Shown here: positions 40,435 to 55,297 of the stretch, in pieces | Layout: each line of letters starts with the position of its first letter | Numbering within the stretch: position 1 is the stretch's first letter | From: Microbacterium sp. TNHR37B | Lineage (GTDB): Bacteria; Actinomycetota; Actinomycetes; Actinomycetales; Microbacteriaceae | Length of the DNA stretch: 64,000 nucleotides | Direction: 5' to 3' | Assembly (NCBI RefSeq): GCF_001620065.1 | Contig: NZ_LQGV01000001.1 | Span: forward strand, 682,001 to 746,000 | Program-made: the position numbers and the translations under genes | The notes under the pieces: model-generated | What the model was told of the DNA's origin: nothing | The model's database searches: none | Seen by the model: only the letters and a program-made list of their open reading frames with translations

Positions 40435-40446
40435 CATGATCGGCAC

Positions 40447-40795: not shown

Positions 40796-40797
40796 GG

Positions 40798-41109
40798 TCA
40801 TTCCTTTCGTCTTGTGTTCACGGTGTCTTCGAGCTCGTCGAGCTCACGTTGGTGACGGGTGAGAGTGTCCTCGAGGCGGCCCATGCGCTCGTCGCCGGCG
40901 ACGAGTCGCCTGTTGATGAGGTCGAACCATCCCCTCGTCTCCGCGTGACGGCGGTCGAGCTCTTCGCGGAGGTTGGTGGAGTGGTCGTTCTCGACCTGGT
41001 GCTGGACGCGCTTTATCCGCCCGTTGATTCGGACGCCCTGGACGGTCACCACGGCGACGAGCACTGTCGCCGTCGCCGTGATGATCGTCTGTAGTAGCGC
41101 TTCGCTCAC
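40798..41109 (-). CDS. phage membrane-anchored coiled-coil protein (DUF2746-like)
   Basis: 103 residues: an N-terminal helix (LLQTIITATATVLVAVVTVQG) followed by a charged, heptad-like region (VENDHSTNLREELDRRHAET, then LEDTLTRHQRELDELEDTVN). Proteins of this shape follow the endolysin in many actinophages, where they are thought to assist lysis. The GTG start overlaps the endolysin stop by 4 bp. Confidence 0.65.
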   Translation of the reverse strand: MSEALLQTIITATATVLVAVVTVQGVRINGRIKRVQHQVENDHSTNLREELDRRHAETRGWFDLINRRLVAGDERMGRLEDTLTRHQRELDELEDTVNTRRKE

Positions 41110-41525: not shown

Positions 41526-41527
41526 GG

Positions 41528-42430
41528 TCAGGCTCCCTTGGTTTCGAGGTTGGTGAGGCGGGTCTCGTGGTCTTGGATGACGGAGAGGAGGGCGAGGCTG
41601 ATGCGGTCGTAGCGGACGCCTTCGGGCTGGCCGTCGGTGCCGTAGTCGACGAGCCATTCGAGGCCGAGCTCGTCGAGCTGCTCGGCGATGAGGCCGTGCT
41701 CGATCGCTCCCGTGCGGTCGGTGTCGACGGCGACCTTGTACTGGAACTCGACGAGCTGCATCGCGAGGACGGCTTGCCGGTCGGGGGTCCAGTCGCGGAT
41801 GTTCTTCTTATAGCGCCGCGACGAGGAGACCCATCCAAGGGTGCCGTCGCTCTTGACGTAGACGTTGCGGTAGCTGCCGCTGATCGTGCGGCTGTAGACG
41901 GCGGACGACAGGTAGCCGTCTTGCGCGGCCCCGGCGATGGCAAGGATCGAGTCGTCGTTGTTGTCGACGTAGGCCTTGGTGGCGACGTGGGAGCCGGACG
42001 TGGGCGAGTCGCAGGAGAGCTTGATCCCGACGAAGTTGCCGTAGCGGAGGCGCTGCTCCAGGTCGCTGTTGAGGTCGGCGTAGACGATCGCGTTGGCTGT
42101 CGAGATGCGGCTCCACGGCAGGGTGGGGATGCGCGCGAGGTTGAACACTCCGCTCGTGATGGAGGCGGCGTCCTGATCGTGGTGGTTGATGAGGGCATCG
42201 ACGTACCACTTGTTGGCCGCGTCGTAGTCGTCGGACGGCGGCCCGAACCGTGCTCGGCCGAACGCGTCGCGCTTGACGTGCCGGTTCGCGAGGCGGTCGC
42301 TGGTGGCCTGGTAGGGGCCGGCGAGGTAGTCGCGGGTCTGATTGATGAGCGTGTCGATGGTGTTGGCCTGGGTGGTAGCGCCGTCGACCACGGCCATGCC
42401 GGCCGCTGCTGCTGCGTCTCCGATTGCCAT
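41528..42430 (-). CDS. tail fibre/spike with C-terminal S74 chaperone domain
   Basis: 300 residues. The last 100 residues contain SSSRRYKKNIRDWTPDRQAVLAMQLVEFQYK and LIAEQLDELGLEWLVDYG. This is the peptidase S74 intramolecular chaperone that helps trimers fold and then cuts itself off, normally at a Ser before the (R/K)xKxNI block. The N-terminal two thirds should attach to the virion and form a receptor-binding trimer. GGAGA precedes the ATG. Confidence 0.82.
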   Translation of the reverse strand: MAIGDAAAAAGMAVVDGATTQANTIDTLINQTRDYLAGPYQATSDRLANRHVKRDAFGRARFGPPSDDYDAANKWYVDALINHHDQDAASITSGVFNLARIPTLPWSRISTANAIVYADLNSDLEQRLRYGNFVGIKLSCDSPTSGSHVATKAYVDNNDDSILAIAGAAQDGYLSSAVYSRTISGSYRNVYVKSDGTLGWVSSSRRYKKNIRDWTPDRQAVLAMQLVEFQYKVAVDTDRTGAIEHGLIAEQLDELGLEWLVDYGTDGQPEGVRYDRISLALLSVIQDHETRLTNLETKGA

Positions 42431-42440
42431 GCTGGTCTCC

Positions 42441-42962
42441 TTAGGCGAGGGGGTATACGGCGTTGAAGCCGACCTGCGCCCCGGTGGGAAAGGTTGAGGT
42501 GCCGGGGGCGACGGTGCCGAGCCAGAGTTCGTTGCTCGCGTTGATGTAGCCGGACATGATTGCCCCGGTGAACCCGTCGTGGACGAGCGAGACGTTGATG
42601 CCCGACGCGCGCTGCCAGCCCGCCCCGAGGCCGCCCATGAGTTGGTTGACAATGTTGCCGTCGCCGCTCGGGACGGTGATCGCCGCCCCGGTGCGGGTGG
42701 CGAGGAAGCCGATGAAGGCGAGACCGCCGCGCTTCCGGCCCTGGATGTTGCTGAGGTTCCATCCGGGGGCGGACGCGATGAATCCGGTGGCGCCGGCACC
42801 GAGGGTGGTGAGGGTTTCGAGGGTCGTGAGGCGTGCTCGGTCGGCGCCGATCGCGTCGCTGACGGAGTCCTGCCCGATGTTCAGGAGGTCGCTGAACGTG
42901 TCGCGCTGGTCGTCCTCGCCGAACATCCAGACGCCGTTGGTGTCGAGGAATCCTGCTGCCAT
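42441..42962 (-). CDS. minor tail protein, probable receptor-binding
   Basis: 173 residues, Gly- and Ala-rich, with a collagen-free C-terminal beta-rich region (GAIMSGYINASNELWLGTVAPGTSTF). No domain is recognised with certainty. Its position between the tail-hub and S74 genes indicates a tail-tip or host-recognition part. Confidence 0.65.
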   Translation of the reverse strand: MAAGFLDTNGVWMFGEDDQRDTFSDLLNIGQDSVSDAIGADRARLTTLETLTTLGAGATGFIASAPGWNLSNIQGRKRGGLAFIGFLATRTGAAITVPSGDGNIVNQLMGGLGAGWQRASGINVSLVHDGFTGAIMSGYINASNELWLGTVAPGTSTFPTGAQVGFNAVYPLA

Positions 42963-42966
42963 GGGG

Positions 42967-44196
42967 TCACACTCCGATCGTGAGGGCGTCAATCACGCCG
43001 GTCAGGTTGTCGATGTAGAGGCCGTCGGGCCACAAGTCGATCGCGTTGGCGACGGCGTCGGCGCTGCCACGGGTGCGGATCGTGGCCTCGTCCTCGGGGA
43101 GACGCCACGTGACCGACTCGATGTAGCCGACCTGGGGCGTGGAGAACGGCAGGGCGGTGGTGACGCCCATGCCGGGACGGAGGGAGTAGTCCGACACCCG
43201 GGAGAGTTCGAGCACGCGGCCACGGGCGCGGAGACGGTTGAGCCAGTAGCGGGCCGCGCCCTTGCCGGGGTAGGGCACGCTGCGCTCGATCGTGACGACC
43301 TTGATCGGGTCGCCCGTGTCCGACGCCGTCTCGTAGCGGACGCGCTGCTCCCCGGTCAGGACGGTCCACTGATAGCGGACCACGACCGCATCCGCCCACA
43401 GGTCACTGTCGAGCGCGACGACGTCACGAGCCGACGTGAGGTTGTCCATCACGACGGTCTCAGGGCGGACTGCGGATCGCTCGGTGAGGGTCCAGCGGCG
43501 GCGGTGATCACACCGGACCACGAGCCCGCTTGCCTCGGCCACGTTCGCCATGTAGTCCCACGCGCTCGTCCCCGGCTCCCACACGATCGCGTCGCCCTCC
43601 GCGATCGTCGCGTCAATGCCGGGCTGGAGCGCGGCGCCGATCTTGCCGAGGGCGTAGTTGACCGTGTCGCGGACGCTCAGGGAGCCGGACGTCTCGGTGC
43701 CGGTGGACACCAGCGAGTAGCCCTGCGCGAGGACCTCGTCCGTCGCGGCGGCGAATGTGATCGTCTGCGCTTCGTGATCGATCTCCCGGTCGGTGACGGC
43801 GAGGTTGGCGCGGATGACGCTGCCGGGCCGTGCGTCGACGCCGTTCCACGGGACAAAGTACGTGGCGGTGAGCTTCGCTGGGGTGAGAGCGGGACCGAAG
43901 GCAGCGGTGATCGCGGAGACGTCGCCGCCGTAGTCGGTGGTCACCTCGGAGGCGATGACGGGGTCACCGGTCGATTCCCGAAGCTCGATGAGGAGGCGGA
44001 GGCCGCGGTTCACGCGCGGGTCGGTGAGCGCGAGCTTGGTCTCGTCCTCGATCATCGCGGCCTCCACGACGGCGTCGCCATACGGCGCCTGCGACTCGTC
44101 AAGGTTCAGTTCCGTCCTGATGTCGCCGAGGTCGACGATGCGGCCCGTAGCGGTGACGACACGGGCCAGCGTCGTGTGCGCAGAGTGCCGGGTCAC
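42967..44196 (-). CDS. minor tail protein (tail hub-like)
   Basis: 409 residues. An internal stretch (SLSVRDTVNYALGKIGAALQPG, then DAIVWEPGTSAWDYMANVAEASGLVVRCDHRRRWTL) resembles the carbohydrate-free core of baseplate-hub proteins that bind the tape measure tip. The GTG start overlaps the upstream gene stop (GTGA). The exact family is not certain. Confidence 0.68.
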   Translation of the reverse strand: MTRHSAHTTLARVVTATGRIVDLGDIRTELNLDESQAPYGDAVVEAAMIEDETKLALTDPRVNRGLRLLIELRESTGDPVIASEVTTDYGGDVSAITAAFGPALTPAKLTATYFVPWNGVDARPGSVIRANLAVTDREIDHEAQTITFAAATDEVLAQGYSLVSTGTETSGSLSVRDTVNYALGKIGAALQPGIDATIAEGDAIVWEPGTSAWDYMANVAEASGLVVRCDHRRRWTLTERSAVRPETVVMDNLTSARDVVALDSDLWADAVVVRYQWTVLTGEQRVRYETASDTGDPIKVVTIERSVPYPGKGAARYWLNRLRARGRVLELSRVSDYSLRPGMGVTTALPFSTPQVGYIESVTWRLPEDEATIRTRGSADAVANAIDLWPDGLYIDNLTGVIDALTIGV

Positions 44197-44564
44197 GACG
44201 ACACCTCCCGAAACGGCACGGTGATGCGCCACACGTTTGTAGCAGCTGGCTCCTGCGTGGCCGTGAGCTCGCGGTCGCGAGGCACGACGTACCGCATGGA
44301 CAGATCGAGCGGCTCGCTGGCGACGACGATCTCCAGCCACGTAGCGGCCCTGTGAAGGTCGAGGATGGAGGCGACTGCCTCTTGCCCCGTGACCATGAGC
44401 TCGAGGTCGCCAGATCGGCTTCCGGTCGGGCTGTGAGTCACGTCAGGGTCACCGCGACCGATGAGCTCGTGAATCCTCGCCCCGCCGGCGTAGCCGATGG
44501 TGACCGGCATGACTGTGGCCGCGGTCGCGGTCGCGCCGGTGTTCGAGGTAATGAGGATGCTCAT
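44193..44564 (-). CDS. distal tail-like protein
   Basis: A 123-residue, beta-rich protein directly after the tape measure gene (4-bp overlap). This slot usually holds the distal tail (Dit) protein that closes the tail tube. It ends WRITVPFREVSS, similar to Dit N-terminal domains. Assignment is by position. Confidence 0.55.
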   Translation of the reverse strand: MSILITSNTGATATAATVMPVTIGYAGGARIHELIGRGDPDVTHSPTGSRSGDLELMVTGQEAVASILDLHRAATWLEIVVASEPLDLSMRYVVPRDRELTATQEPAATNVWRITVPFREVSS

Positions 44565-45853
44565 ACGACCGCCCGCTTCCGGTCGCGGGTGTTGACGCTG
44601 ATGGTCGCGACCCGACTGTTGATCCGACGGACGATCCGGTCGACCTCGGCTTTCGTCTTGTCCTCGACGCCGACGTTGACACGCACGTCCTTGTCCCTGA
44701 TCCCGTAGATCTTCTTCTCGATCGCGTCAGTGTTCTGCGTGGCCTGCCCGGTCTCGGCGTCGATGTAGATCGTCGTTCCGTCCGGGAGGCTGACGACGCG
44801 ATCGCCGAACTCGTCGACCTTGCTCGTGGCGCCCTCGGTCTTATCGGCGATGTTGCGCAGCGCCTGGGAGAGGATGCCGGCGCGGGTCGAGCCTTGATCC
44901 ATCTCGTCGGTGAGCTCTCGATAGCGCGAGCTCGCGTCTGCCAGCTGATCGAGCGCTTTGGACTGCTCGTCGTACGTGAGCTCACCGGCCTCTCGAGCTC
45001 GCGTGAACGCCTCACGCTGCTCGTCGAGAGAGTCATTCACTGCCTTGATGCTCTCGGGCTGGCCAGCCTGCGCGAGCACCGCTGTCTCGATACTCACCCC
45101 CCACAGTTCGGCTGCCTCGGTGGCCTTCTTGTACTTCTCGGTGTCGGTGATGATGTCGTTGGCGCCGGCGATGATCTGGCCAGCCGTGAGCACCCGCCCG
45201 CCGGCTTCGATGAACCGGTCGGCCCACTCAGTGATCCGCTCTTGGGATGCCGCGTTGGCGGCGTCGATCTGTTCGAAAGCGCCGATGATGAGGCCGAGGC
45301 CCGCTGCGCCCGCAGCGGTCGCCGCGAGGCCGGCGATGCCGCCGAGGGCGCCCGATCCCGCGAGGCCGCCGAGGGTGTCCTGGGCGATCTGTGGGAGGTC
45401 TTGCAGGTCACCACGGAATGAACTGAAGGTCTCGCCGAGGTTGCCGCGGAGCTCGTCGGATACCTCGGCCCCTTTCTCGCCGAGTCGACCGAAGCCGTTT
45501 GAGCCGGCATCGCCGACTTTGTCGACGGCGTCCGTCGTGTCCTTCGCCGCACGTTCAGCGCCGCGCGCCTGGTCCACGAGCTCGCGGAAGGATCGGTCAA
45601 GGCGTCCGAGAGAGTCTTCCCCCTGCCGGGCGCCGGCGTCGACACCGTCTCCGAGGTCACGGGCCGCGCGCTCGGTCTTGCCCGCCTCGTCTGCGACCTC
45701 GCTTAGCTCGCGCTGGAGGTCGCGCCCGCTGGCGCCTCCGTCGCGAGCGACGTCGTCGAGTGCGTCGGCGACATCGTCGAGCGCGTTGCCGATGTCGCGC
45801 GTGCCGCGCAGCAGGTCGCGGGTGTTGGAGACGAAGTCGATCTTGATCGGCAT
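44561..45853 (-). CDS. tape measure protein
   Basis: 430 residues, mostly helical. The first 130 residues are charged heptads (LLRGTRDIGNALDDVADALD, then LQRELSEVADEAGKTERAARDLGDGV). A hydrophobic Gly/Ala segment follows (GALGGIAGLAATAAGAAGLG, then LIIGAF, about 165-195), then more helices. It is very short for the family. At the known 0.15 nm per residue it predicts a tail of about 65 nm. Confidence 0.86.
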   Translation of the reverse strand: MPIKIDFVSNTRDLLRGTRDIGNALDDVADALDDVARDGGASGRDLQRELSEVADEAGKTERAARDLGDGVDAGARQGEDSLGRLDRSFRELVDQARGAERAAKDTTDAVDKVGDAGSNGFGRLGEKGAEVSDELRGNLGETFSSFRGDLQDLPQIAQDTLGGLAGSGALGGIAGLAATAAGAAGLGLIIGAFEQIDAANAASQERITEWADRFIEAGGRVLTAGQIIAGANDIITDTEKYKKATEAAELWGVSIETAVLAQAGQPESIKAVNDSLDEQREAFTRAREAGELTYDEQSKALDQLADASSRYRELTDEMDQGSTRAGILSQALRNIADKTEGATSKVDEFGDRVVSLPDGTTIYIDAETGQATQNTDAIEKKIYGIRDKDVRVNVGVEDKTKAEVDRIVRRINSRVATISVNTRDRKRAVV

Positions 45854-46359
45854 CAGGCCACGACCTCGACGGTGTCGATCGCCTTGAACTCGTCAACGAC
45901 GCCTTTCACCCACAGGGCGACGATCCGGGTCCCGACCTCGCTCGCCGCGTCGAACGCGATCATTCCGTGCGGCCGGCGGGACCGGAACTGCCTGTTGATC
46001 GTGAGGGGCCGCGTGTAGGTGCGGCCACGTCGCGATCGCTGGCGCACGCGGACGACCTGGGTACGTGCGCCGAACTCGACGCCGGCCCACTCGTCGGCCG
46101 GCACGAGCCCTCCTGCGAGGGGTCGGCGCGAGGTTGCTGCCATGACGGATACTCCACGGTCGGATGCGGTGGCCCTGGCGCCGGCGGCGATCACTCGCTG
46201 TTCCATGCGCGTGCGCGCGCGGCGAGCGAGCTCCTGCTGCCAGATCGGGCGGAGGCGGGTGCGGGAAGATCGGTTGATCGAGAGACGGATGCCGCGGTCG
46301 GCTTGCCTGAGTGCGAGCACGGTTGCTTGGAGCTCCCGCGATTGGCGCACGTCGAGCAC
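45853..46359 (-). CDS. basic tail protein in the assembly-chaperone slot
   Basis: 168 residues, rich in Arg (about 16%), from a GTG start, between the major tail and tape measure genes. HK97-gp10-like wording (ELQATVLALRQADRGIRLSI) suggests a head-tail or tail-completion protein. Most siphophages have two chaperone frames joined by a -1 frameshift in this slot. None is seen here. Confidence 0.6.
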   Translation of the reverse strand: MLDVRQSRELQATVLALRQADRGIRLSINRSSRTRLRPIWQQELARRARTRMEQRVIAAGARATASDRGVSVMAATSRRPLAGGLVPADEWAGVEFGARTQVVRVRQRSRRGRTYTRPLTINRQFRSRRPHGMIAFDAASEVGTRIVALWVKGVVDEFKAIDTVEVVA

Positions 46360-46364
46360 GGCCC

Positions 46365-46790
46365 TTATCCCTCCGGTTCGTCAGCGAGGTAGGTGACGGC
46401 CTCGCTGCACGGCAGCGTGAGCGTCACCTCGGGGATGCCGCCCGAGCGGTTGGTGACGAGTTGGGGCTTGAGCGTCTTGAGATCGACCGAGAGCGCGAAC
46501 GTGCCGTCGTAGTGCGGGTACCAGATCAGCGTGAGCGGGGTGCCTGCGGGGCTGTCGTGGAACAGGCGCCAGAGCGAGTCGGCGTTCTCGGTGTCCTGCG
46601 CCATGGTGAGCGCGATGGTCGGGTCGCCTGGGGTCACCTCGCTGAGCGTGTTGTTGTCACCGCCCTTCCAACTGCTGCCGGTGTAGTTCGGGTTGTAGTC
46701 GATCGCGGACGTGTGCCCCTGGAACTCGTTCTCACCGATCTGCGCCTTCCAGCGCTTGGTGCTGCGGGCCGTGTTGGCGGGCGTGGTCAT
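46365..46790 (-). CDS. major tail (tube) protein
   Basis: 141 residues, beta-rich (KRWKAQIGENEFQGHTSAID, ALSVDLKTLKPQLVTNRSGGIPEVTLTLP), directly after the tail-terminator gene with a 4-bp overlap and before the tape measure region. Size and order fit the tube subunit of a small siphovirus. Confidence 0.75.
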   Translation of the reverse strand: MTTPANTARSTKRWKAQIGENEFQGHTSAIDYNPNYTGSSWKGGDNNTLSEVTPGDPTIALTMAQDTENADSLWRLFHDSPAGTPLTLIWYPHYDGTFALSVDLKTLKPQLVTNRSGGIPEVTLTLPCSEAVTYLADEPEG

Positions 46791-47200
46791 GCTGACTCCT
46801 CGAGGGTGAGTGCGCCGGAGGCGCGGATCGTGAACTGATAGGCGGGCTTCTGGTTGTCGTAGGCGTCGCGGGTCGCCGCGCCGTCCCAGACGTGAGTGGG
46901 CAGGGGCTCGAGGATGCGGATCATCGTCGCTGCGGCATCTTCGAGGAGGTCTTCGACGTCGGGGGTGTCGTCACCGCGGGAGCCGTCGACCACGACCCAG
47001 AGCATGAGCTCGACGGCGATCGGCATCCCGTTCCCGTCAGGCGACGTGTTGCCGGCGGTCATGGATCGCTGCTCGATCACGACTGCGACGGTCGTCTGCG
47101 GGTCGTCGAATGGCAGCAGGTTTACCGGGTGGGCGTGAATCTCCCACGTGTCGGGGGCATCCGGAGCGATGAGCTCCGCGAGGTCAGAACGTGCGCTCAT
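46787..47200 (-). CDS. tail terminator protein
   Basis: 137 residues: LAELIAPDAPDTWEIHAHPVNLLPFDDPQTTVAVVIEQRSM and the C-terminal YQFTIRASG match the general form of tail-terminator (gpU-like) proteins, which cap the tube before it joins the head. It lies between the connector and the major tail gene. Confidence 0.68.
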   Translation of the reverse strand: MSARSDLAELIAPDAPDTWEIHAHPVNLLPFDDPQTTVAVVIEQRSMTAGNTSPDGNGMPIAVELMLWVVVDGSRGDDTPDVEDLLEDAAATMIRILEPLPTHVWDGAATRDAYDNQKPAYQFTIRASGALTLEESA

Positions 47201-47202
47201 GG

Positions 47203-47562
47203 TCAGCCGATCAGGGAGCCGACGCGACCGCGGTCTCCGACGACTGTCCCATCGACGGTGACCGGCGACGGCACGATGAGCAGCGCCATGATCTTGCCGT
47301 CGAGGGGGCGCAGCGCGACGCTCTGTGCCTCGCTGCCGTACTCGTCGTTGACGACGCCGGCTTGCGTGGCCTGCTTGTTCGCGAGAGCTTGGAAGACGAC
47401 GCCCTGCGCGAATGACGCGGACGGTGGAGCATCGAGGGTCAGCGATAGACCCTTGACGCGAAGGCACTGCTCCCGTGCCGACGCCAGGCCGGCGGCGGTG
47501 ACGGTCACGTTGAACGATGACTTGGCCGATTCCGGCGTGTGCCATGCGGGCTCGTCAGCCAT
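47203..47562 (-). CDS. head-tail connector-type protein
   Basis: 119 residues (MADEPAWHTPESAKSSFNVT... ...DGTVVGDRGRVGSLIG). No strong domain match can be read. Position after the capsid-module gene and before the tail terminator indicates an adaptor or stopper of the neck. Confidence 0.58.
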   Translation of the reverse strand: MADEPAWHTPESAKSSFNVTVTAAGLASAREQCLRVKGLSLTLDAPPSASFAQGVVFQALANKQATQAGVVNDEYGSEAQSVALRPLDGKIMALLIVPSPVTVDGTVVGDRGRVGSLIG

Positions 47563-47633
47563 GGTTGCTCTCCCTTCGTGGTAGGGGTCGTGGGCGGGCG
47601 GGGCGCGTCTCCGCCCGCCCCACGACGTGTGTG

Positions 47634-47882
47634 TCAGTCCTCGGAGTCGCCGGCGTCGTCGGCCAAGCCCTCGAGCTCGAGGTAGGACTTCCGGCGGGCG
47701 GTGAGCTCCTTGATCTGCGCGCGCAGACCCTTGATCTGCGCGTTGATGTGCTGCGCCTTCAGCTGCGCGTACGTCGCCGGCGCGGCCGGCTTCGGGGCGG
47801 GTGCCGGCGCCGGGGCCGCTTCCGGCGTGGCGGGCGCCGGCGCCGCCGTGGCCGGCGTGGCCGGCGTGCTGTTGTCGCTCAT
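47634..47882 (-). CDS. Pro/Ala-rich head protein
   Basis: 82 residues. The first 38 are a Pro/Ala/Thr-rich low-complexity arm (PATPATAAPAPATPEAAPAP). The rest is a charged amphipathic helix (AQLKAQHINAQIKGLRAQIKEL) and an acidic end. It starts 2 bp after the capsid stop. Such a flexible arm plus coiled coil could decorate or staple the capsid, or join head and neck. The function is unknown. Confidence 0.6.
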   Translation of the reverse strand: MSDNSTPATPATAAPAPATPEAAPAPAPAPKPAAPATYAQLKAQHINAQIKGLRAQIKELTARRKSYLELEGLADDAGDSED

Positions 47883-47884
47883 GC

Positions 47885-49027
47885 TCACGCCTCCGTGATC
47901 GTGGTCTTGACGATCGCGCGGGCGTCGTTGATGAGGGTGCCGCCGTAGGCGAACCAGCCGAGGTCGATGCCACCGTTGCCGATGACCTGCGCCTCGAGCT
48001 TGACCTTCGGCGACTCGAACACGGTCGCCGCGCGCGGGTCGTACGCGGCGAATCCGCCGGCGGCGAGCTCGAAGTTCACGTCGACGTCGAACACGTCGGC
48101 GAGCGACGTCGAGCCGTCGAGCTTGACGTAGCCGGTCGAGTTGGCGATCCACGCGGGCAGGTCGGCGACCTTGAGCTCGGCGAAGTCCACGAACACGTCT
48201 TCGGCCATCCAGAACTTGGTCGGGCGGGCGCCGATCTTGCGCAGCTGAAGGTAGGCCTTCGAGAGCGCGTTGAGCAGCGACGTCGCGCCGCCGGTCAGAG
48301 CGCTCGCGCCGGCGATGAGGTCGGCGAACACTGCCTTGTCGGACACACCCTCGTAGTTGCGGTCGAGGATCGCGAACATCGACGCGATGAGGTCGGCGCT
48401 GCCGAGGTCGGCGTAGATGCGGTCGATCCGGTTGCCCTTCGCCCAGCGCGACGGGGTCTCGCTGACGGGCACCGTCACCCACTCGTCGGAGGGGATCGGC
48501 GCGAGGCCGCCGGCGTAGGGCTCGGGCGCCGGCGTCGGCTCCTGCCACTTCCAGCCCTCGATCTTGTTGGACGTGAGCGGACGGACGCCACCCAGCGACT
48601 CGATGACGGGGCGCCCCTCAGGGGTCGCCTGCCAGACCTGCCCGATGCGGTCGGGCTGCAGGAACGCTTCGCCGCCGTCGTTCGCGACGAGGGTCGGGTC
48701 GTCGGTGATCGCGTTGTTGACGGCCAGGACGAACGCGGCGATGTCGTGGTTCTCGATCGCCGGCAGGAGCTCATCGCGGATCAGCTGCTGCCGCGAGCGG
48801 GGCCGCTCTTCGGTCTGGACGGGGGCCGGCGTGGGGGCGTTCTGCGGGCCGGTGGCGTACTCGGCGGCGACGGGCTGCCCGGGCGCTGCGACGGCGGCGA
48901 CGACGGGCGCGGCCTGCGATGCAGCCGGGGCGCCCTCGATCGCGTCGAGCGATGCGATCGACGCGTCGTACTGCGCCTGGGTGATGGTGCCGGCGTTCAG
49001 GGCCGCCAGCAGCTGGGCTCGGTTCAT
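47885..49027 (-). CDS. major capsid protein from internal start (nested in fusion)
   Basis: A 380-residue product of an in-frame ATG at 49027, preceded at 5 nt by AAGGAA inside the protease part of the gene. It would consist of the scaffold-like delta segment and the HK97 shell domain without the protease. A virion needs hundreds of capsid subunits and only few proteases, so internal initiation would give the right ratio. The product is inferred from the site and not proven. Confidence 0.6.
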   Translation of the reverse strand: MNRAQLLAALNAGTITQAQYDASIASLDAIEGAPAASQAAPVVAAVAAPGQPVAAEYATGPQNAPTPAPVQTEERPRSRQQLIRDELLPAIENHDIAAFVLAVNNAITDDPTLVANDGGEAFLQPDRIGQVWQATPEGRPVIESLGGVRPLTSNKIEGWKWQEPTPAPEPYAGGLAPIPSDEWVTVPVSETPSRWAKGNRIDRIYADLGSADLIASMFAILDRNYEGVSDKAVFADLIAGASALTGGATSLLNALSKAYLQLRKIGARPTKFWMAEDVFVDFAELKVADLPAWIANSTGYVKLDGSTSLADVFDVDVNFELAAGGFAAYDPRAATVFESPKVKLEAQVIGNGGIDLGWFAYGGTLINDARAIVKTTITEA

Positions 49028-49753
49028 GAGGGTTTCCTTTTCTCGGTGGGTTGCCAGGGCGGCGGGTGCCGGTGCCGCTGCGCGGCCGGCGTGGGCGAAC
49101 ATGGACAGGTCGAATGCGGCGGGCTGCTCGGCGGGCGCAGTGCCCTCGGCGCGATCGGCGAGGCCGGCGGCGACAGCCTCGTCGGCGGAGTACCACGCTT
49201 CGGCCTTCATGACGGCGCGCCAGGCGGTCGCCTCGCCGCCGGCCTTCGTCGCGTACATGGCGGCGATGTTGTCGCTGACGCGGTCGAGGTCGTCGCCGAC
49301 CTGGCGCATGTCGTCGGCGTTGCCGATCGCGATCGTCCACGCGTCGTGGATCATCAGCTGCGCGTTCTCGCCCATCACGACCTCGTCGCCGGCGACGGCG
49401 ATGAACGAGGCTGCCGACGCGGCGAGGCCGTCGACGTGGGTGACGACGTGCGCGGGGTGCTGGCGGATCGCGTTGCGAATCGCGATGCCCTCGAAGACGT
49501 CGCCGCCGGGGCTGTTGATGTAGACCTCGAGCGTGGCGACGTCGAGCGCGCGGATCGCCGGCACGATATCCGCTGCGGCCACGTCGCCCCACATGCCGCC
49601 GATCACGCCGTAGACGTGCAGCGATGCGACGCCGCCGGCGCTCTCGAGGTTCCACGTCGGCTTGTTCTTCGCTGCCTGCGCGGCGTACTGGCCGACGCGG
49701 CGCGCGAGCTCTTCGGGGGTGACGGCGTTCAGGATGATGCGGCGCGGGGTCAT
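47885..49753 (-). CDS. head maturation protease fused to major capsid protein
   Basis: A single 622-residue frame. Residues 1-242 are a ClpP-like S14 protease: VYINSPGGDVFEGIAIRNAI, GLAASAASF with Ser113 as probable nucleophile, and MIHDAW with His136. From residue 243 an HK97-type capsid protein follows: a helical, Ala/Pro-rich delta-like domain (about 243-335), then the shell domain (LGGVRPLTSNKIEGWKWQEP and on to IDLGWFAYGGTLINDARAIV). Met243 (49027) has its own AAGGAA site, so free capsid protein is probably also made. The ATG overlaps the portal stop. Confidence 0.88.
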   Translation of the reverse strand: MTPRRIILNAVTPEELARRVGQYAAQAAKNKPTWNLESAGGVASLHVYGVIGGMWGDVAAADIVPAIRALDVATLEVYINSPGGDVFEGIAIRNAIRQHPAHVVTHVDGLAASAASFIAVAGDEVVMGENAQLMIHDAWTIAIGNADDMRQVGDDLDRVSDNIAAMYATKAGGEATAWRAVMKAEAWYSADEAVAAGLADRAEGTAPAEQPAAFDLSMFAHAGRAAAPAPAALATHREKETLMNRAQLLAALNAGTITQAQYDASIASLDAIEGAPAASQAAPVVAAVAAPGQPVAAEYATGPQNAPTPAPVQTEERPRSRQQLIRDELLPAIENHDIAAFVLAVNNAITDDPTLVANDGGEAFLQPDRIGQVWQATPEGRPVIESLGGVRPLTSNKIEGWKWQEPTPAPEPYAGGLAPIPSDEWVTVPVSETPSRWAKGNRIDRIYADLGSADLIASMFAILDRNYEGVSDKAVFADLIAGASALTGGATSLLNALSKAYLQLRKIGARPTKFWMAEDVFVDFAELKVADLPAWIANSTGYVKLDGSTSLADVFDVDVNFELAAGGFAAYDPRAATVFESPKVKLEAQVIGNGGIDLGWFAYGGTLINDARAIVKTTITEA

Positions 49754-50934
49754 GCGGTGAGCTCCTTGGTCGGCTGCCCTTCCTGGGCGTCGATGAATGA
49801 CTGGTCGATGAATCCGCCGCGCATGCCGATTTCGTACGTCTCGAATCGCGTCTTCATGTCCGGGCGGGTGAGCGAGTCGATATCGAGGTCGGTCGTCCAG
49901 CCGATCGGTGTCGTGTCGGCCATAGACAGCCGCGACGTGATGGGGGTCATGTACGTCGAGAGGAACAGGTCGATGAGCTCCCACGCCCGCGACTGCCGGT
50001 TCTGGTAGTTCAGCGTCGATCCCTCGAGCGCGACGTCGGCCGCCCAGGCGGGGATGCCGAGCGCGCGGGCGAGCTTGAGGTCCATGCGCTTCTGCGCGTC
50101 GATGAGCAGCTGCGAGTCCTGGATGCCGAGCGCCTTGACCTCGATCGTCTTGTCGGAGAATCCAGCGCCGTGCTTCGCTCGAGCTCGCCGCCACGATGCG
50201 AGCAGGTCGCCGATCTGCGCCTCGTCGAGCTGCTGATTCCCGGTGTAGTGCAGGTCGACCGAGGGCACGGGGTTCTCTTCGGCGAGCGAGGCGGCACGGT
50301 CGAGGACGATCGCGCGGCGCAGCGTGCGCTGGCCATCGTGCAGCAGACCGCCGTCCGGTGAGTCGAACTGGATCACGTCACGCGGCTCGACGGGCTTGCC
50401 CCACGCGCGAACGAGCTTGCCGTCGTTGTCGAACTCGGCGTCTTTGCGGTCGAGCAGCTTCACGCCGCCGCGCGCCGGCCAACCGTACGCGTCGCGGCGC
50501 TGGACGATCCACCACGTGCGCGGGTAGAACAGCAGCGCGTCGACAGTCCAGGTGAGCGTGGCCTCGACGGGTCGGTCGGCCTCGGGCTGCTGGAGGTAGC
50601 CCATCGCGACGGGGGCCGGCCTGCCGGCTTTGCGTGTGACCAGCTGCATGCGGCCGATGTTCGTCGCGAGGACTCGGCGCCCCTTTGCGACGACGTCGAG
50701 GCTCATCGCGGTCTTGCGGGTGATCTGGATGTTGCTCGAGTCGGCCAGGCCGTAGAGCTCGCCGACGATGTTGAGCGGGTCGCTCTCCCAGGGGGTCGCG
50801 ATCGACGCGCGGGCACCCGTTCCGCCGAGGCCGGGGGTGCCGGGGTTCGCGAGCTCACGCGCGATCGCTGCTCGCAGTCGGGTCATCAGTCCGGGCTTGT
50901 CCACGCCTGAGAACGTCGAGCCGACTCCTGACAC
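49750..50934 (-). CDS. portal protein
   Basis: About 394 residues, HK97-type portal. It shows LALARALGIPAWAADVALEGSTLNYQNRQSRAWELIDLFLSTYMTPI-like sequence near 285-325 and EVKALGIQDSQLLIDAQKRMD. It forms the dodecameric DNA gate. The first codon is uncertain: GTG at 50934 gives the longest form, while an ATG at residue 17 (MTRLRAAIA) is also possible. It overlaps the capsid fusion gene by 4 bp. Confidence 0.86.
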   Translation of the reverse strand: MSGVGSTFSGVDKPGLMTRLRAAIARELANPGTPGLGGTGARASIATPWESDPLNIVGELYGLADSSNIQITRKTAMSLDVVAKGRRVLATNIGRMQLVTRKAGRPAPVAMGYLQQPEADRPVEATLTWTVDALLFYPRTWWIVQRRDAYGWPARGGVKLLDRKDAEFDNDGKLVRAWGKPVEPRDVIQFDSPDGGLLHDGQRTLRRAIVLDRAASLAEENPVPSVDLHYTGNQQLDEAQIGDLLASWRRARAKHGAGFSDKTIEVKALGIQDSQLLIDAQKRMDLKLARALGIPAWAADVALEGSTLNYQNRQSRAWELIDLFLSTYMTPITSRLSMADTTPIGWTTDLDIDSLTRPDMKTRFETYEIGMRGGFIDQSFIDAQEGQPTKELTA

Positions 50935-50975
50935 CCGAAAGGGTCAACGCGGCGTGTCGCGATTGTTCGCCCGAC

Positions 50976-51446
50976 TCAGGGACTCCATCCCAGGAGGTCG
51001 AGCAGGTCGACCTCGACGGGCGGTGCCGCGCTGACGATCCGGAATGTGATCGGCCGCAGCGGGTCACCGACGAAGGGAAAGCACCTGTCGTCGCGCCGAT
51101 GAGGGTTCACCAGGCAGTACGACCATCCCCATAACGGCGCGAGGTCATCGCCGCGCATCCCCCGGGCGAACGCGTGATGATCGTGCTCGCTGATCGCCTC
51201 CACTCGATAGACCTCGCTCTCGAGGATGTGCCCACGCCACGGCGCCGAGTAGGTGACCAGATCACCGACCACGGGCTCGACCGGATGGGCGGATCGACGG
51301 TGCCCCTGGATCGCGATCGCGTTATGGCCACGCCGGCGCTCGTCGTCGTCGCGCCAGTCGAGTGAGTACTCGACGCCGGCAACGTCGACGGTCTCGCCGC
51401 AGTCGATGCACACGGGGGCGAGCGGCGTGTATCCGGCCCAACTCAC
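50976..51446 (-). CDS. phage protein of unknown function between terminase and portal
   Basis: 156 residues from a GTG at 51446 that overlaps the preceding stop (GTGA). An N-terminal CxxC (VCIDCGETVDVAGVEYSLDW), one further Cys pair spread through the chain, and many Trp/His are visible. I do not recognise the family. Zinc binding is possible. Confidence 0.6.
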   Translation of the reverse strand: MSWAGYTPLAPVCIDCGETVDVAGVEYSLDWRDDDERRRGHNAIAIQGHRRSAHPVEPVVGDLVTYSAPWRGHILESEVYRVEAISEHDHHAFARGMRGDDLAPLWGWSYCLVNPHRRDDRCFPFVGDPLRPITFRIVSAAPPVEVDLLDLLGWSP

Positions 51447-51658
51447 CTGTGATCCCGTCCGGTGGCTGCGGCACGTGCTCGGCTCATGCGTTGATCGCGT
51501 GCATTGCGGGCTTGGTCGTCCTCGGGGTGCGCTCGCTGCTCGTGTCGCGCGCCGACCTGCCACCCCTCGTGGGGGCTGTCCGCGAACCCACGCCACCAGG
51601 GGCAGCGGGAGCACAGAACGACGGTGCTGATCTGGGTTGAGTCGAGTCGAATGGTCAT
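51443..51658 (-). CDS. small zinc-ribbon-like phage protein
   Basis: 71 residues: VVLCSRCPWWRGFADSPHEGWQVGARHEQRAHP gives a C-x2-C ... H ... H pattern like half a zinc ribbon, followed by a strongly charged tail. Its ATG overlaps the terminase stop region by a few bases. Its coding is supported by the tight overlaps on both sides. Confidence 0.6.
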   Translation of the reverse strand: MTIRLDSTQISTVVLCSRCPWWRGFADSPHEGWQVGARHEQRAHPEDDQARNARDQRMSRARAAATGRDHR

Positions 51659-51660
51659 GT

Positions 51661-53100
51661 TCAGAACCTCGTGGCGGGCGTCCATTCGGGCGCGGATCGG
51701 TGGTCGATGAGGTACAGGCCGACCGCCGAGGCGATCGGGCCGGCTACGGGGCCGGTGGAGTCGGCGCGGCTGATGCGAACGGTGTCGTTGGTGCGCTTGA
51801 GCACCATGTGCGAGGCGCCGAGAGACAGGGTCTTCGAGCCGTCGTGGATGAGGGTCTTCTCGTCGCGGGCGGCGGTGATCCAGGAGTCGTCGGCGATGCC
51901 GCGCTCGACGCCGTTGAGCACGGTCACGGCGTCGTCGCCGAGGCGCAGCTGTAGCTCGGAAGTGATGCGGCGGGTCGGCCCGCCGTTGTCGGCGCCGAAC
52001 GCTGCCGGCCCGTAGCCGTGGAGCTCGACGAGCAGGTCGACCATCCACTGGGTGCCGGGAGCGGCGTGGATGACGCGCGTGCACGGGTTGCCCTTGTCGT
52101 CGCGCCAAGTGCCGATGACGGCGCCCATCGCGTTGTCGAGGGCAACCTCCCACGTGATCGCGACGTCGCTCCACCGTGCGCTGATCGTCGGGTCGGCGAG
52201 GTCATCCCAGTCGGGGATGAGCGGATCGCGTGCCTCAGTCCAGCGGTTGCAGTACGCGCGAATCCACGTCGCGTGGTCGATGCGCTCTTCCTCGGGCGCG
52301 CGCCCGTCGACCTTCGCCATGAGGTCGTCGACGTCTTGCGTGTGTCCGATCGCCGGGTGGAACGCGGCGATCGCCGCCGGGTCGTAGGGGTCGGCGTCGT
52401 CAGGCAGCGACGCCTCGAAGTAGGCGAACCGAGGATGCGACCCGGGCTCGTCGACCGACCGCCGGCCGATCTTCATCAGCGCCTTCATGTAGGTCGACTC
52501 GGCGGTGCCGGCGGTCGACATGAACCAGATTTGCCGGCGTCCTCGGAGGGTGATCTGCGCGGGCTCGACGCCGTCAGCGATGAGCTCTTTGCCGGCCAGC
52601 TGTGAGAGCGTCCAGATTTCGTCGACGCCGACGAGGTTCGGCGTCTTGCCGTGAATCTTCGCCGGCAGCGGAGGGAACGCCCAGACCTCGGATTTGTTCG
52701 GGAACACCATGCCGGTCTGCGCGGCGCTGCGCTTGCCGGCGACGTGCGGCGCGAGCCGGCTGCTGCCTTCGACGCGACCAATGAGCGTCTTCATGATCGT
52801 GCGGGCGTCGTCGCCGGTCTGGGCCGTGAAGTACACCCGGGCGTTGGCGAGCTCGATCGCGCGGTGGATCTGGACGGGGCCGAACAGCGTCGTTTTCCCG
52901 GACTGGCGCGGCACGGTGATGAGCACCTTCTCGTATACGTAGTTGCCGTGGTCATCGACCTCGGTCGCGACGTCCCAGACCTCCTGCTGCCAGGGCATGG
53001 GTTCCCAGCCGAGCGACCGGGCGATAGCCGCGATCGCCGCGCCGCGCGTGGCCCTCGAGGGGTCGCGCTTCGTCGCGTAGGTGAACCCTGCCCAGGTCAC
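51661..53100 (-). CDS. terminase large subunit
   Basis: 479 residues with an N-terminal ATPase and a C-terminal nuclease. Walker A is VPRQSGKTT (about 63-71) and Walker B LVGVDEIW (D160, E161). The nuclease acidic residues are read in VALDNAMGAVIG and FGADNGGP. It packages DNA into the head and cuts it. The GTG at 53100 overlaps the preceding stop (GTGA). The longer start at 53136 lies inside the upstream gene. Confidence 0.9.
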   Translation of the reverse strand: MTWAGFTYATKRDPSRATRGAAIAAIARSLGWEPMPWQQEVWDVATEVDDHGNYVYEKVLITVPRQSGKTTLFGPVQIHRAIELANARVYFTAQTGDDARTIMKTLIGRVEGSSRLAPHVAGKRSAAQTGMVFPNKSEVWAFPPLPAKIHGKTPNLVGVDEIWTLSQLAGKELIADGVEPAQITLRGRRQIWFMSTAGTAESTYMKALMKIGRRSVDEPGSHPRFAYFEASLPDDADPYDPAAIAAFHPAIGHTQDVDDLMAKVDGRAPEEERIDHATWIRAYCNRWTEARDPLIPDWDDLADPTISARWSDVAITWEVALDNAMGAVIGTWRDDKGNPCTRVIHAAPGTQWMVDLLVELHGYGPAAFGADNGGPTRRITSELQLRLGDDAVTVLNGVERGIADDSWITAARDEKTLIHDGSKTLSLGASHMVLKRTNDTVRISRADSTGPVAGPIASAVGLYLIDHRSAPEWTPATRF

Positions 53101-53417
53101 TGCTGGCTCGCTACCCAGGACTCGAGCTCCTGCCAATCGCGGTTGCCCTTGGCAGCTGCGACTTGCAGCAGCGTGAGCATTTCCTCGTGTGCACCCTTGA
53201 GCGCGTCATTCACGGTGTAGCCCTTGCTGCGCGGATCGTCGGCGATCGCTGCGCGGCGCAGGATGCTGGCGCAGATGCCGGCGTGCGTGTCGTCGATGAC
53301 GGCGAGGCGTTGGAGCTCGGCGATCGCTTTCTCGTACGACGGGAACACGGGCACGCGCGTCACTTCCGGCTCGAGGCCGGGGAGGAATTCCGATAGGTCG
53401 CTGCTGTTGTCGGTCAT
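53097..53417 (-). CDS. probable terminase small subunit
   Basis: 106 residues, acidic and helical (FPSYEKAIAELQRLAVIDDT, GYTVNDALKGAHEEMLTLLQ). It directly precedes and overlaps the large subunit, the normal place for the small subunit that recognises the packaging site. Its own motifs are too weak for a family call. Confidence 0.62.
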   Translation of the reverse strand: MTDNSSDLSEFLPGLEPEVTRVPVFPSYEKAIAELQRLAVIDDTHAGICASILRRAAIADDPRSKGYTVNDALKGAHEEMLTLLQVAAAKGNRDWQELESWVASQQ

Positions 53418-53499
53418 GTCGTGGGCTTTCGTCTAGATCGCTTTTTTCTGGGCGGGATCGGGAGAAAAGGAACGGGGCTTCGCGTGGGTGTCCTCGAAG
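53418..53499. other. gap between HNH and terminase genes, candidate packaging site
   Basis: 82 bp with no gene, between an HNH endonuclease and the terminase pair. In cos phages with an HNH protein this is where cohesive ends are cut. I see homopolymer tracts but no diagnostic motif. Confidence 0.35.
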
Positions 53500-53814
53500 T
53501 CAGCGGCTAAAAAACGCGAGGCCGCTCTCGATCGGGATGCCGACGGGACGGAGCGGCTTGCGACCTCTGGCGTAGTTGCAGCGGCGGTGCGACGGGCCGA
53601 GGTTGTCGAGGTCGTAGACCGCGCCGCCGTCAGCGCGCGGGATGATGTGGTCAGCGCTATCGCTGCCGGGTCGACCACAGTTGATGCACACGTCGCCGTA
53701 CGCAGCGAGCGTGGCGTCGACGTACTGCTGCGCCTTTCGACCACCCCATCGCTGCGGCTTGGCATCCGCCTCGGCGTAGCAGCCGGGGCCGTGGCGCAGG
53801 GCGAGCGAGCTCAT
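53500..53814 (-). CDS. HNH endonuclease
   Basis: 104 residues. CINCGRPGSDSADHIIPRADGG, DLDNLGPSHRRCNYARG form the complete HNH fold: zinc Cys pairs, catalytic DH, Asn and final His. Next to terminase genes such proteins cooperate with the large subunit in genome cutting (HK97 gp74 type). Confidence 0.88.
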   Translation of the reverse strand: MSSLALRHGPGCYAEADAKPQRWGGRKAQQYVDATLAAYGDVCINCGRPGSDSADHIIPRADGGAVYDLDNLGPSHRRCNYARGRKPLRPVGIPIESGLAFFSR

Positions 53815-53993
53815 GGCTTGACTCGCGTCTCGTAGTACGCGAGGGCGAGCAAAGCGACGACGGACGCCCAGCTGCACGAGACGAGCAGCGCGAGCACGTC
53901 GCGCGGGATCATCGTCGAGATGACGACGGTACCGATCGCGATCGCCAGCAGCGTGACCATCGCGACGAGCAGCGCGTGAGCGCGGCGACGCAT
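53811..53993 (-). CDS. small phage membrane protein
   Basis: 60 residues with two hydrophobic helices (ALLVAMVTLLAIAIGTVVIS and VLALLVSCSWASVVALLALAY). ATG at 53993 (or GTG 53996) overlaps the stop of the replication gene. The stop overlaps the HNH start by 4 bp. Function unknown. Confidence 0.58.
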   Translation of the reverse strand: MRRRAHALLVAMVTLLAIAIGTVVISTMIPRDVLALLVSCSWASVVALLALAYYETRVKP

Positions 53994-54652
53994 CACGATG
54001 CACTCCTGAGAGCGAGCGGCCTCTCGGCGCAGTGCACGCACTTGCCGTAGTGGCCGAGCTCGTGCGCGCCGTTGCGATAGTTCGCGGGGCACCGCTCATC
54101 CGACCAGCGCACGGCGCCGAGGTTATCCACAGGCGCAACCATCGTGCCCTGTGGTTGCGCTGGTACGTGATCTTTGTTCTTTACTTGGTCTTCTATAGGC
54201 GTCGGTTTGACCGACGACGGTGGAGCCGACGTCGGTTTAGCCGACGTCGGATAATCCGACGCGGTGCGGCGCGGGTTATCCACAGGCGCGAGTAGTGGTG
54301 AGGCACCGTGTTCGTCGACCCCCTCGAAGGGGTCTTGGATCACCCAGTCGTGCCCCGCCATGCGACCGTGCGCGCGGCGCTTCTGAACGCGGTGGAGGTA
54401 CCCATAACGCTCGAGTTCGCTGACCATCCGGCGCAGGGCGTCGCGCCCCTCAAGACCAGCGCCGCTGAGAGCGTCAAGGGTGATCTGATAGCTCGAGGTG
54501 TCGTGCGTCATGAGCTCGGCGAGAAGGCCCCGTGCCCCACGACTGAGGCGGCGATCGCGGAGCCACGCGTTGGGCAGCTGTGTGAAGTCTCGCTCGAAGC
54601 GCAGCTGGACGCGCGTGATCCTCGCGGACTGCGCGGTGTGCTCGGTCACCAT
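53993..54652 (-). CDS. phage replication initiator-like protein, winged helix
   Basis: 219 residues. The N-terminal 110 residues are a winged helix of the replication-initiator type (FTQLPNAWLRDRRLSRGARG, LLAELMTHDTSSYQITLDAL, GRDALRRMVSELERYGYLHR). The middle is a Pro/Ser/Thr linker with repeats (DYPTSAKPTSAPPSSVKPTP). The C terminus has a possible zinc site (CPANYRNGAHELGHYGKCVHC). The linker DNA contains two DnaA boxes and three palindromes, like lambda O with its internal origin. No helicase or polymerase gene is present, so the host machinery must be recruited. Confidence 0.7.
   Translation of the reverse strand: MVTEHTAQSARITRVQLRFERDFTQLPNAWLRDRRLSRGARGLLAELMTHDTSSYQITLDALSGAGLEGRDALRRMVSELERYGYLHRVQKRRAHGRMAGHDWVIQDPFEGVDEHGASPLLAPVDNPRRTASDYPTSAKPTSAPPSSVKPTPIEDQVKNKDHVPAQPQGTMVAPVDNLGAVRWSDERCPANYRNGAHELGHYGKCVHCAERPLALRSAS
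54123..54284. other. candidate phage replication origin
   Basis: TTATCCACA, the perfect DnaA box, occurs at 54123-54131 and 54276-54284, each followed by GGCGC. Between them are three 17-bp palindromes of the form CGTCGG-5 nt-CCGACG (54200-54216, 54230-54246, 54245-54261) and an AT-rich run (about 54167-54199, roughly two-thirds AT against a GC-rich background). All lie within the linker of the initiator gene. Confidence 0.65.
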
Positions 54653-54873
54653 TGGACGGCAAGCGCGCTGGCGAATGCACGGGCCGCGGCGGAGCCGCGG
54701 AGTGCACCCTCGGTGAGGATGACGATCAGCGTGCGCTGCTGATCGAGCGAGAGCGGTGCGAGCGCGCGCTTGTAGAGCTCGAGGCGCACCAATGGTTCGG
54801 GGTGCTCGCTGACGGTCGCGAGCTCGGTGAGCTGACGCGCGATCGCCTGGTAGTTCTCGGTGGCGGTTGCCAT
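54646..54873 (-). CDS. first gene of the lytic operon, small helical protein
   Basis: 75 residues, all-helical (AIARQLTELATVSEHPEPLVRLELYKRALAPL). It is divergent from the repressor-like gene, where a Cro is expected in related circuits. I see no clear helix-turn-helix, so the Cro role is only positional. It overlaps the replication gene by 7 bp. Confidence 0.6.
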   Translation of the reverse strand: MATATENYQAIARQLTELATVSEHPEPLVRLELYKRALAPLSLDQQRTLIVILTEGALRGSAAARAFASALAVQW

Positions 54874-54892
54874 GTCCCTGGTCTCCACTTCC

Positions 54893-54908
54893 GTATCATT
54901 TTCGATAC
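54893..54908. promoter_or_regulatory. candidate phage operator at the early lytic promoter
   Basis: GTATC-6 nt-GATAC, 20 bp upstream of the first lytic gene. On the minus strand a TTGTGG and TGTATC pair with 17-bp spacing places the -10 on the repeat. It is a probable binding site for the XRE repressor. Confidence 0.5.
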
Positions 54909-54963
54909 AGAGGGAACGGTCATGCACCACAAGCCCGCTTGTCACGATTGCGTGCGGCGTGTC

Positions 54964-54973
54964 GCAATATTGC
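54964..54973. promoter_or_regulatory. palindrome at the repressor promoter
   Basis: GCAATATTGC, a perfect 10-bp palindrome, 27 bp upstream of the repressor ATG. TAGCAT at 54988-54993 is a -10-like hexamer 6 nt before that ATG, so the repressor mRNA may be leaderless. The palindrome would lie near its -35. Confidence 0.4.
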
Positions 54974-54999
54974 CACGCTTGACGCGCTAGCATGACGGC

Positions 55000-55263
55000 A
55001 TGACCATGCTTCAGTCGCAGGCCACGACACCGGCTCAACTGCTCTCGGAGACTCGGCGCCTCTCGGGGCTCACTACGCGCGAGCTCGCCGCGCTCATCGG
55101 AGTCTCGCACTCGGCGATCGCGCGGTGGGAGCGTGGCGAGGGAGAGCCGAGCGCTTCGCAGTTCGTGCGTTGGGCGCGCGCAACAAGACAGCCCCTCGAC
55201 CAGATGATCGAGGGGCTGTCGTCGTGCACCCCCTGGGACTCGAACCCAGAACCCACTGATTAA
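55000..55263 (+). CDS. XRE-family repressor-like protein, truncated by integration
   Basis: 87 residues in the lysogen. Residues 13-70 are a Cro/C1-type helix-turn-helix (LSGLTTRELAALIGVSHSAIARWERGEGEPSASQFVRWA). Codons 76-87 (CTPWDSNPEPTD) and the TAA lie in the tRNA-derived core and its host-side neighbour. In the excised phage the frame continues through attP for 31 more residues (39464-39559), giving 118, with int directly downstream. This is the arrangement of integration-dependent immunity repressors, whose truncated prophage form is the active one. That role is inferred. Confidence 0.82.
   Translation: MTMLQSQATTPAQLLSETRRLSGLTTRELAALIGVSHSAIARWERGEGEPSASQFVRWARATRQPLDQMIEGLSSCTPWDSNPEPTD
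55187..55220 (-). terminator. phage-borne terminator for tRNA-Lys inside the repressor gene
   Basis: A perfect 13-bp stem (GACAGCCCCTCGA at 55187-55199, complement at 55208-55220) with an 8-nt loop starts 4 bp past the tRNA 3' end on the minus strand. It is followed by TTGTTG. It probably replaces the host terminator that was moved to 39386-39422. On the plus strand it encodes repressor residues 63-74 and lacks a U tract. Confidence 0.72.
55224..55261. repeat. attachment core, right prophage end
   Basis: 38 bp identical to 39427-39464. It covers tRNA-Lys nucleotides 37-73 and one flanking base, restoring a full tRNA at this end. Strand exchange probably takes place in the anticodon-loop part. 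Confidence 0.93.
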
Positions 55264-55297
55264 GAGTCAGTTGCTCTGCCGATTGAGCTAGAGGTGC
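55225..55297 (-). tRNA. tRNA-Lys (CTT)
   Basis: 73 nt folding into a standard cloverleaf: acceptor GCACCTC/GGGGTGC, D stem GCTC/GAGC, anticodon stem ACTGA/TCAGT with loop CTCTTAA (anticodon CTT), T arm CTGGG-TTCGAGT-CCCAG and discriminator A. CCA is not encoded. Its 3' half (nt 37-73) is phage-supplied. Confidence 0.96.

Follow-up and report, generated by a model that had tools for sequence, protein, structure and literature searches.

The original report on integration-dependent immunity is said to be that of Broussard et al. in 2013. The system is now established, among others, in phage BPs (PMC4557955) and, with tRNA-Lys as the target, in Gordonia phages of 17 kb (PMC5559632), and an -AA tag is listed among its key features in the accessible text of PMC9934374. 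BPs and Angel are described in the accessible parts of PMC4557955 and PMC9262239 as carrying attP within rep, with a phage-only repressor tail of 33 residues and a stop codon coming from the host base beside the core, and residue 135 is stated in the former source to affect the stability of the BPs repressor. The phages of Gordonia cluster CW (McGonagall, Jeanie, GMA5 and GRU3) have an integration-dependent system and an attP of 37 bp that matches tRNA-Lys, according to the text available for PMC5559632. In Bifidobacterium, Bb423phi2 and 689b-1 also have attP within rep, with a phage-only tail of 18 residues obtained by in-silico joining (PMC6109161, accessible part). The Mycobacterium abscessus prophages MabC, MabN, MabO and MabH were reported as integration-dependent and likened to BPs, with a repressor devoid of the ssrA-like tag, and the authors presume that other degradation signals act in these prophages (PMC8092301, accessible part). 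As for Microbacterium, no report of integration-dependent immunity was found in the accessible portions of the open-licence literature (PMC7302621, PMC9030533, PMC5513430, PMC9262239, PMC6109161).

The prophage described here is located in a 64,000-nucleotide stretch of DNA from Microbacterium sp. TNHR37B, which was analysed as a whole and is hereafter called the window. Among the best 40 of the 592 integrase matches listed, identity to the integrases of small Gordonia phages and BPs-group mycobacteriophages is 42–48%, with the cluster CW phages, SallySpecial and EricDab (genomes of 15.9–17.7 kb) at 43–48% and Angel at 42%; the comparison with the Gordonia CW phages and the Microbacterium EE phages discussed below covered the integrase and the repressor. 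SallySpecial and EricDab resemble the window in having rep located before int in the same direction but differ in their C termini, with Rep ending in -SAA (-MSAA) and -WAA (-PWAA) and Int in -WAA and -AAAA, respectively, whereas Rep of the window ends in -PRS and Int in -AAAS. BPs and Angel are unlike the window in their tRNA-Arg target and larger genome, and the repressor of Angel, a relative of BPs, ends in -DKAS, which is alanine-bearing, and not in -LAA. Bb423phi2 and 689b-1 are small like the prophage of the window but have a tRNA-Met target and an ssrA-like tag (PMC6109161, accessible part). The four M. abscessus prophages share with the window the layout without such a tag, a likeness drawn from the description in the available text of PMC8092301.

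The tRNA-Lys prophage and its repressor-like gene

The features of the locus are listed in Table 1. Matches to terminase, portal, M23 and integrase were found in the prophage with Pfam and PHROGs, some of them below the Pfam cut-off.

Table 1 Positions of the features discussed in the text, with the evidence for each.
Feature	Position	Strand	Basis or remark
Prophage, 15,797 bp	39465..55261		In 3′ half of tRNA-Lys(CTT); direct repeat and length
attL core, 38 bp, host-derived tRNA-Lys 3′ end	39427..39464		Identical to 55224-55261
attR core, 38 bp, phage-supplied tRNA-Lys 3′ end	55224..55261		Identical to 39427-39464
tRNA-Lys(CTT), restored/intact	55224..55297	-	ARAGORN; attL/attR comparison; anticodon loop gives the TAA of rep
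rep, prophage form, 87 residues, XRE/HTH_3 repressor-like	55000..55263	+	HTH_3 6.2e-12; PHROG transcriptional repressor 1.3e-10
Phage-only repressor tail, 31 codons and stop, SESDEAAFEVEHQLLLISEAMTDAGVDRPRS	39464..39559	+	In-silico attP; cut from rep by integration
Tyrosine integrase	39607..40434	+	PF00589 2.2e-21; C terminus SLAAAS; alternative starts 39565, 39601
Host hairpin, presumed native terminator of tRNA-Lys, moved to the left end	39386..39422	-	Fold of 70 nt beyond the left core
Hairpin within the rep coding sequence, putative terminator of tRNA-Lys in the lysogen	55187..55220	-	z = -7.3
Small divergent gene beside rep, in the position of an early lytic/Cro-like gene	54646..54873	-	ORF list
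Candidate operator dyad GTATC-N6-GATAC	54893..54908		Inverted repeat search

According to the preliminary description of this locus, an XRE frame runs into the 38-bp core shared with tRNA-Lys and stops at a TAA with two host-side bases, and these coordinates hold: the core lies inside the repressor-like coding sequence (within 55000-55263), and the TAA takes its first base from the core and the other two from the host, so the prophage form is shortened by a stop codon from bacterial DNA. When the phage ends are rejoined in silico (...55261 to 39465...), the frame stays open for 31 more codons up to 39559 and gives 118 residues versus 87, also as described before. The rep-attP-int order of BPs, with attP within a repressor-like gene, was likewise seen, the tyrosine integrase being located 3′ of rep in the same direction with a tRNA as attB, and the earlier distance of 47 bp between 39559 and int is correct for the TTG start at 39607, which is the one nearest to the integrase homology. 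The predicted 118-residue form ends in -DRPRS without a terminal -AA, in agreement with the absence of an -LAA end noted earlier, and no C-terminal -AA tag is found on the integrase, which ends in -LAAAS. The system is family-like by architecture and yet a variant, because the -AA tag named as a feature in the accessible text of PMC9934374 is absent here. NCBIfam gave matches only below its cut-offs.

The open frame alone proves nothing, since 31 open codons also arise in 43% of cases when these 93 bases are shuffled, and at 68% of window positions. Frame openness was therefore rejected as evidence for a switch, and the case for it rests on the relatives described below.

The host side of attR, GATTAAGAGTC, corresponds to the anticodon loop of tRNA-Lys read in antisense, and the phage side of attL is GATTCAGAGTC. 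The base that opens the frame is on the phage side (GATTC, host GATTA), a single phage base turning the stop TAA into TCA. A crossover to the right of this C/A mismatch (in AGAGTC), which would close the attP frame, was also considered and rejected because it implies that the host tRNA would have had a CTG anticodon and because the C-bearing pattern GAACCCACTGATTCRGAGTC is present in only 3/366 Microbacterium genomes. In two of these (G000 and G179) it is located at an attL, and in the third (G710) two contigs have it at their ends, one of these contigs being the element of that genome.

The head of the window's rep is 45–51% identical to proteins of Efeko, Naby and BonaeVitae and 37–46% identical to the other 37 of the 40 matches listed, and in the RefSeq copies of Efeko and BonaeVitae the homologue is labelled as a transcriptional repressor. 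Efeko (L032) and Lunatic (L033), which we take to be members of cluster EE, have genomes of ~17 kb with no annotated integrase, and their rep genes end after the head, where the core would begin, at 79 and 76 residues. Biscayne, also a repressor-head match, belongs to cluster EE (PMC11749239, accessible part), and this cluster is reported in the accessible text of PMC7302621 to be lytic and to have neither integrase nor repressor; in the sequences compared here, members of the cluster carry a repressor-like head without an integrase.

The small gene next to rep has no Pfam or PHROG match. Besides the candidate operator in Table 1, further dyads are located upstream of rep at 54929-54942 and 54964-54973, and similar spaced dyads were seen by eye in several relatives, e.g. 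GATCC-N6-GGATC in L096, the same inverted repeat search giving no dyad in L034, L130 and L033. In most relatives, there is a -10-like TANNNT box ~6–7 bases before the rep ATG (by eye), the proximity of which suggests a leaderless rep transcript, and GGCGTGTC upstream of rep is common to most of the different heads, again by eye. Repressor identity is assigned by fold, position and labels only, so the XRE protein might be a Cro-like or accessory regulator with immunity encoded by another gene; this seems very unlikely given that the gene is oriented divergently to the phage genes beside it, has dyads upstream and occupies the position of the annotated immunity repressors of SallySpecial and EricDab.

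The hairpin at 55187-55220 lies within the 3′ part of the rep reading frame, and its bases would thereby have two roles, coding for the repressor and terminating tRNA-Lys transcription. By our own reading, a comparable hairpin precedes the core in 15/18 of the elements with the same layout (see the next section), with differing stem sequences and weak forms in L036, L087 and L093, and the host sides of the elements also possess a hairpin. In Efeko and Lunatic, as relatives lacking attP, no such regular hairpin was seen at the equivalent place. The phage appears, from these sequences, to bring a replacement tRNA terminator within its repressor coding sequence.

A tmRNA gene encoding the tag ADAKRTDFALAA is located at 58672-59039, ~3.4 kb from the attachment site, and the host's own ssrA tag ends in ALAA.

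Related elements with the same layout

Integrase searches yielded 21/295 Microbacterium genomes at E ≤ 1e-40 and 7/366 at 1e-75, 12/398 genomes of the family at 1e-70 and 5/396 genomes of the order at 1e-70, the genome of the window being included in each count. Out of 37 host-genome regions (the window included), 24 have resolved ends, defined as a direct repeat of tRNA-like sequence, although in the repeat of L052 no tRNA was called by ARAGORN. The ends are not resolved in the other 13 (L035, L038, L045, L047, L049, L086, L088, L092, L094 and L132-L135), among which left tails are readable in L035 and L092, and L086 and L088 show, immediately before int and near bases 1800-1900, a tRNA-like core whose anticodon is CAT, with no second copy within 20 kb.

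In 18 of the 24 resolved elements, including the window, a repressor-like frame runs through the right core and is open in the in-silico attP, where it gains 12–49 codons; the HTH character of the heads of the other elements was judged by eye. All 18 prophage forms stop no more than 6 bases from the core end, so none of these elements uses the third core frame, in which such a stop is lacking. If the three frames are taken as equal, the probability that 18/18 use one or other of the two frames leading to a stop is 0.0007, a value to be read with the elements not being independent. In L085, L090 and L091 the tRNA-Lys core is in another frame and the stop is TGA, where the phage has TGG or TGC.

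The six other resolved elements (L040, L044, L048 and L051-L053), which are excluded from the 18, show no repressor-like frame across the core, have a length of 8–15 kb and code for integrases 35–42% identical to that of the window. They sit at tRNA-Gly, tRNA-Leu or another tRNA-like sequence and are possibly satellites or other prophages.

Rep, tail and int are contiguous in the circular viral contigs L096 (16,644 bp) and L100 (16,045 bp) as well as in the contig L139, so long-form genes exist beyond in-silico joins. The window's own 118-residue form is a reconstruction, and 0/214 matches in the phage records cover 80% of it. A wider DNA pattern for attP gave no new element in viral contigs; for the 17 new loci that it yielded (L113-L129), the 2.5 kb downstream contain no match to the integrase, and these loci look like chance matches.

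Repressor tails and integrase ends

Three protein searches, the last represented by the best 120 of 169 matches, gave 122 homologues (P0002-P0123), including the window's own protein P0011 and several elements already counted above. The core-encoded peptide is present in 115 of the 122 homologues listed, the remaining seven having no core. Of these 115 proteins, 41 extend at most one residue past the core and 74 continue for at least five residues as a tail, which is the kind of split expected if one kind of gene has been sampled both as prophage and as phage.

Elements are referred to here as Microbacterium-type if their integrase is 58–65% identical to that of the window; among them, L096, L097, L100 and L102 are viral contigs with no assigned host, and L098, L099 and L101 were left out with tails cut off or not found. 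None of the 11 readable Microbacterium-type tRNA-Lys elements has a Rep tail ending in -AA, and nine of them share the motif F-W-x-[IL]-V-x-x-[LM] followed by varied C-terminal residues, the two exceptions being the window and L100. In the tRNA-Lys tails of other genera, the motif is found in 0/8 and the -AA end in 5/8, and the contrast by genus is 6/7 versus 0/8 for sequences which share descent. The FW block and the core are 2–9 codons apart, and the F and V codons show changes at their third position, a combination that fits selection on the protein, and its pN/pS of 0.53 points to only moderate constraint. In the survey, FW.[ILV]V lies wholly within the tail in 22 of the 74 tails listed, as against an average of 0.05 after shuffling of the tails. 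When the two residues before the tail are included, 24 tails have the motif and one of them ends in -AA, compared with 25 of the other 50 (Fisher 6e-5, for sequences sharing descent); 25/74 tails have neither. The tail class follows both the host genus and the phage lineage, so its association with the genus could be due to descent alone. No FW or LDVEY-like stretch was seen by eye in the Angel tail.

The integrase ends differ in parallel with the Rep tails, -AA being found in 0/11 Microbacterium-type integrases and in 8/10 from other genera, a count from which L094 and L132-L135 were dropped, two of these five ending in -AA. Only one (L049) of the 16 more distant integrases from Microbacterium genomes (L038-L053) ends in -AA, and the integrase of Angel also ends in -AGF. 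The ends observed in the Microbacterium-type integrases (L034-L037, L096, L097, L100, L102, L103 and L130) are -AAAGF, -AVGF, -ASGF, -AAAG and -AAAS. Most integrases from other genera end in -AAA or -AA.

The tail of the window matches the second tail class, LDVEYELLLIAEAV (1/2000 shuffles). A score of 47 was obtained when its stretch AAFEVEHQLLLISEAM was aligned to ASLDVEYELLLIAEAV in P0017, which is a natural long form and has a related head; 1/2000 shuffles reached this score, and the DNA read in its other two frames gave 27 and 31. The same class (LDVEYxLL...) is found in P0030, P0080, P0007 and L050 and is common across targets, since relatives of the P0017 class use tRNA-Arg-type cores. 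Judging by these alignments, the tail resembles conserved tail classes and is not incidental sequence. It might nevertheless be supposed that attP lies in rep incidentally and that both forms repress equally, with the tail being mere read-through sequence, as chance gives 31 open codons in 43–68% of cases; however, the layout in 18/24 elements, the FW count of 22/74 against 0.05 expected and the match of the window's tail to an independent class make this very improbable.

The window's tail continues for 10 residues (TDAGVDRPRS) past the conserved stretch; P0017, P0030, P0007 and L050 end shortly after it, and most related tails within two residues. These additional residues and the absence of FW would fit a switch that once worked and has decayed in this copy, the tail having lost its original end and the two forms being no longer separated. 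Such a decay is quite improbable, considering that this copy retains an intact head, core, hairpin and integrase frame as well as the creation of the stop, and that P0080 likewise runs past the conserved stretch.

AlphaFold2 models were obtained for two relatives, P0017 and P0003, one per tail class. Both contain a confident HTH head, a low-confidence core-encoded part without regular structure and a tail predicted to be helical with low confidence (pLDDT about 50–60). The conserved tails are candidate alternative degradation signals, and the main rival to this is direct inhibition, in which the tail would inactivate the phage form without proteolysis, e.g. by docking of the helix on the repressor or by an altered multimer state. 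The conserved elements are indeed hydrophobic stretches with an aromatic start and not a C-terminal tag, and both modelled tails are, at low confidence, helical behind a flexible core-encoded linker; at such confidence, however, the models give docking no support, and the long and short forms of the BPs repressor bind DNA alike, with the long form being degraded (PMC4557955, accessible part). Similar tails are carried by heads of different sequence, which suits a portable tag better, and direct inhibition is, in our view, unlikely.

The preliminary description had considered the mechanism separating the two forms as possibly new, which was too strong inasmuch as both the tRNA-Lys layout (PMC5559632) and tagless repressors (PMC8092301) are already described in the accessible texts. 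What can be retained is that the extension, resembling the conserved tail classes, could be an alternative signal.

The proposed switch and its meaning

Given the observed layout, the origin of the stop codon, the recurrence in relatives, the contiguous long forms and the conservation of tails, we propose, with a probability of roughly 0.7, that the locus is an integration-dependent immunity switch converting a predicted 118-residue phage form with a 31-residue tail into the 87-residue prophage form; repressor function, inactivity of the long form and proteolysis are what we infer from the sequences.

In the circular phage, rep and int have the same direction and are likely to form one transcript, in which rep contains the core and continues from there into the tail. 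An infecting phage would produce both proteins at the same time, Rep being held at a low level by its tail, and Int, also likely to be limited, would sometimes integrate the phage. Recombination into tRNA-Lys would restore the tRNA and put GATTAAGAG, the antisense of the anticodon loop, after the core, so that TAA would end rep in the prophage, and would also part int from the presumed promoter of rep. By analogy with BPs (PMC4557955, PMC9262239, accessible parts), the loss of the tail on integration would stabilise Rep and uncouple int. Since the tail would make the repressor of the free phage short-lived or inactive, immunity would be established only after integration. The tail of the window, with its predicted helix of the LDVEYxLL... 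class, would act as an alternative degradation signal distinct from the FWxIVxxL class.

A broader and more tentative reading, possible rather than probable, is that, in Microbacterium phages, the ssrA-like -AA code has been replaced on Rep and Int together, with a host protease or adaptor outside the ssrA pathway reading the new signals. Rep would then carry portable amphipathic helix degrons (FWxIVxxL, LDVEYxLL) and Int capped ends (-AAAGF, -AAAS).

The two conserved tail classes, each present in naturally contiguous long forms, provide concrete sequences to test. They also speak to the tagless repressors presumed to use other signals (PMC8092301, accessible part), and such short portable tails may be useful as stability tags. 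If the broader reading is true, a second proteolysis code, presumed before but not identified, would set lysogeny in these phages.
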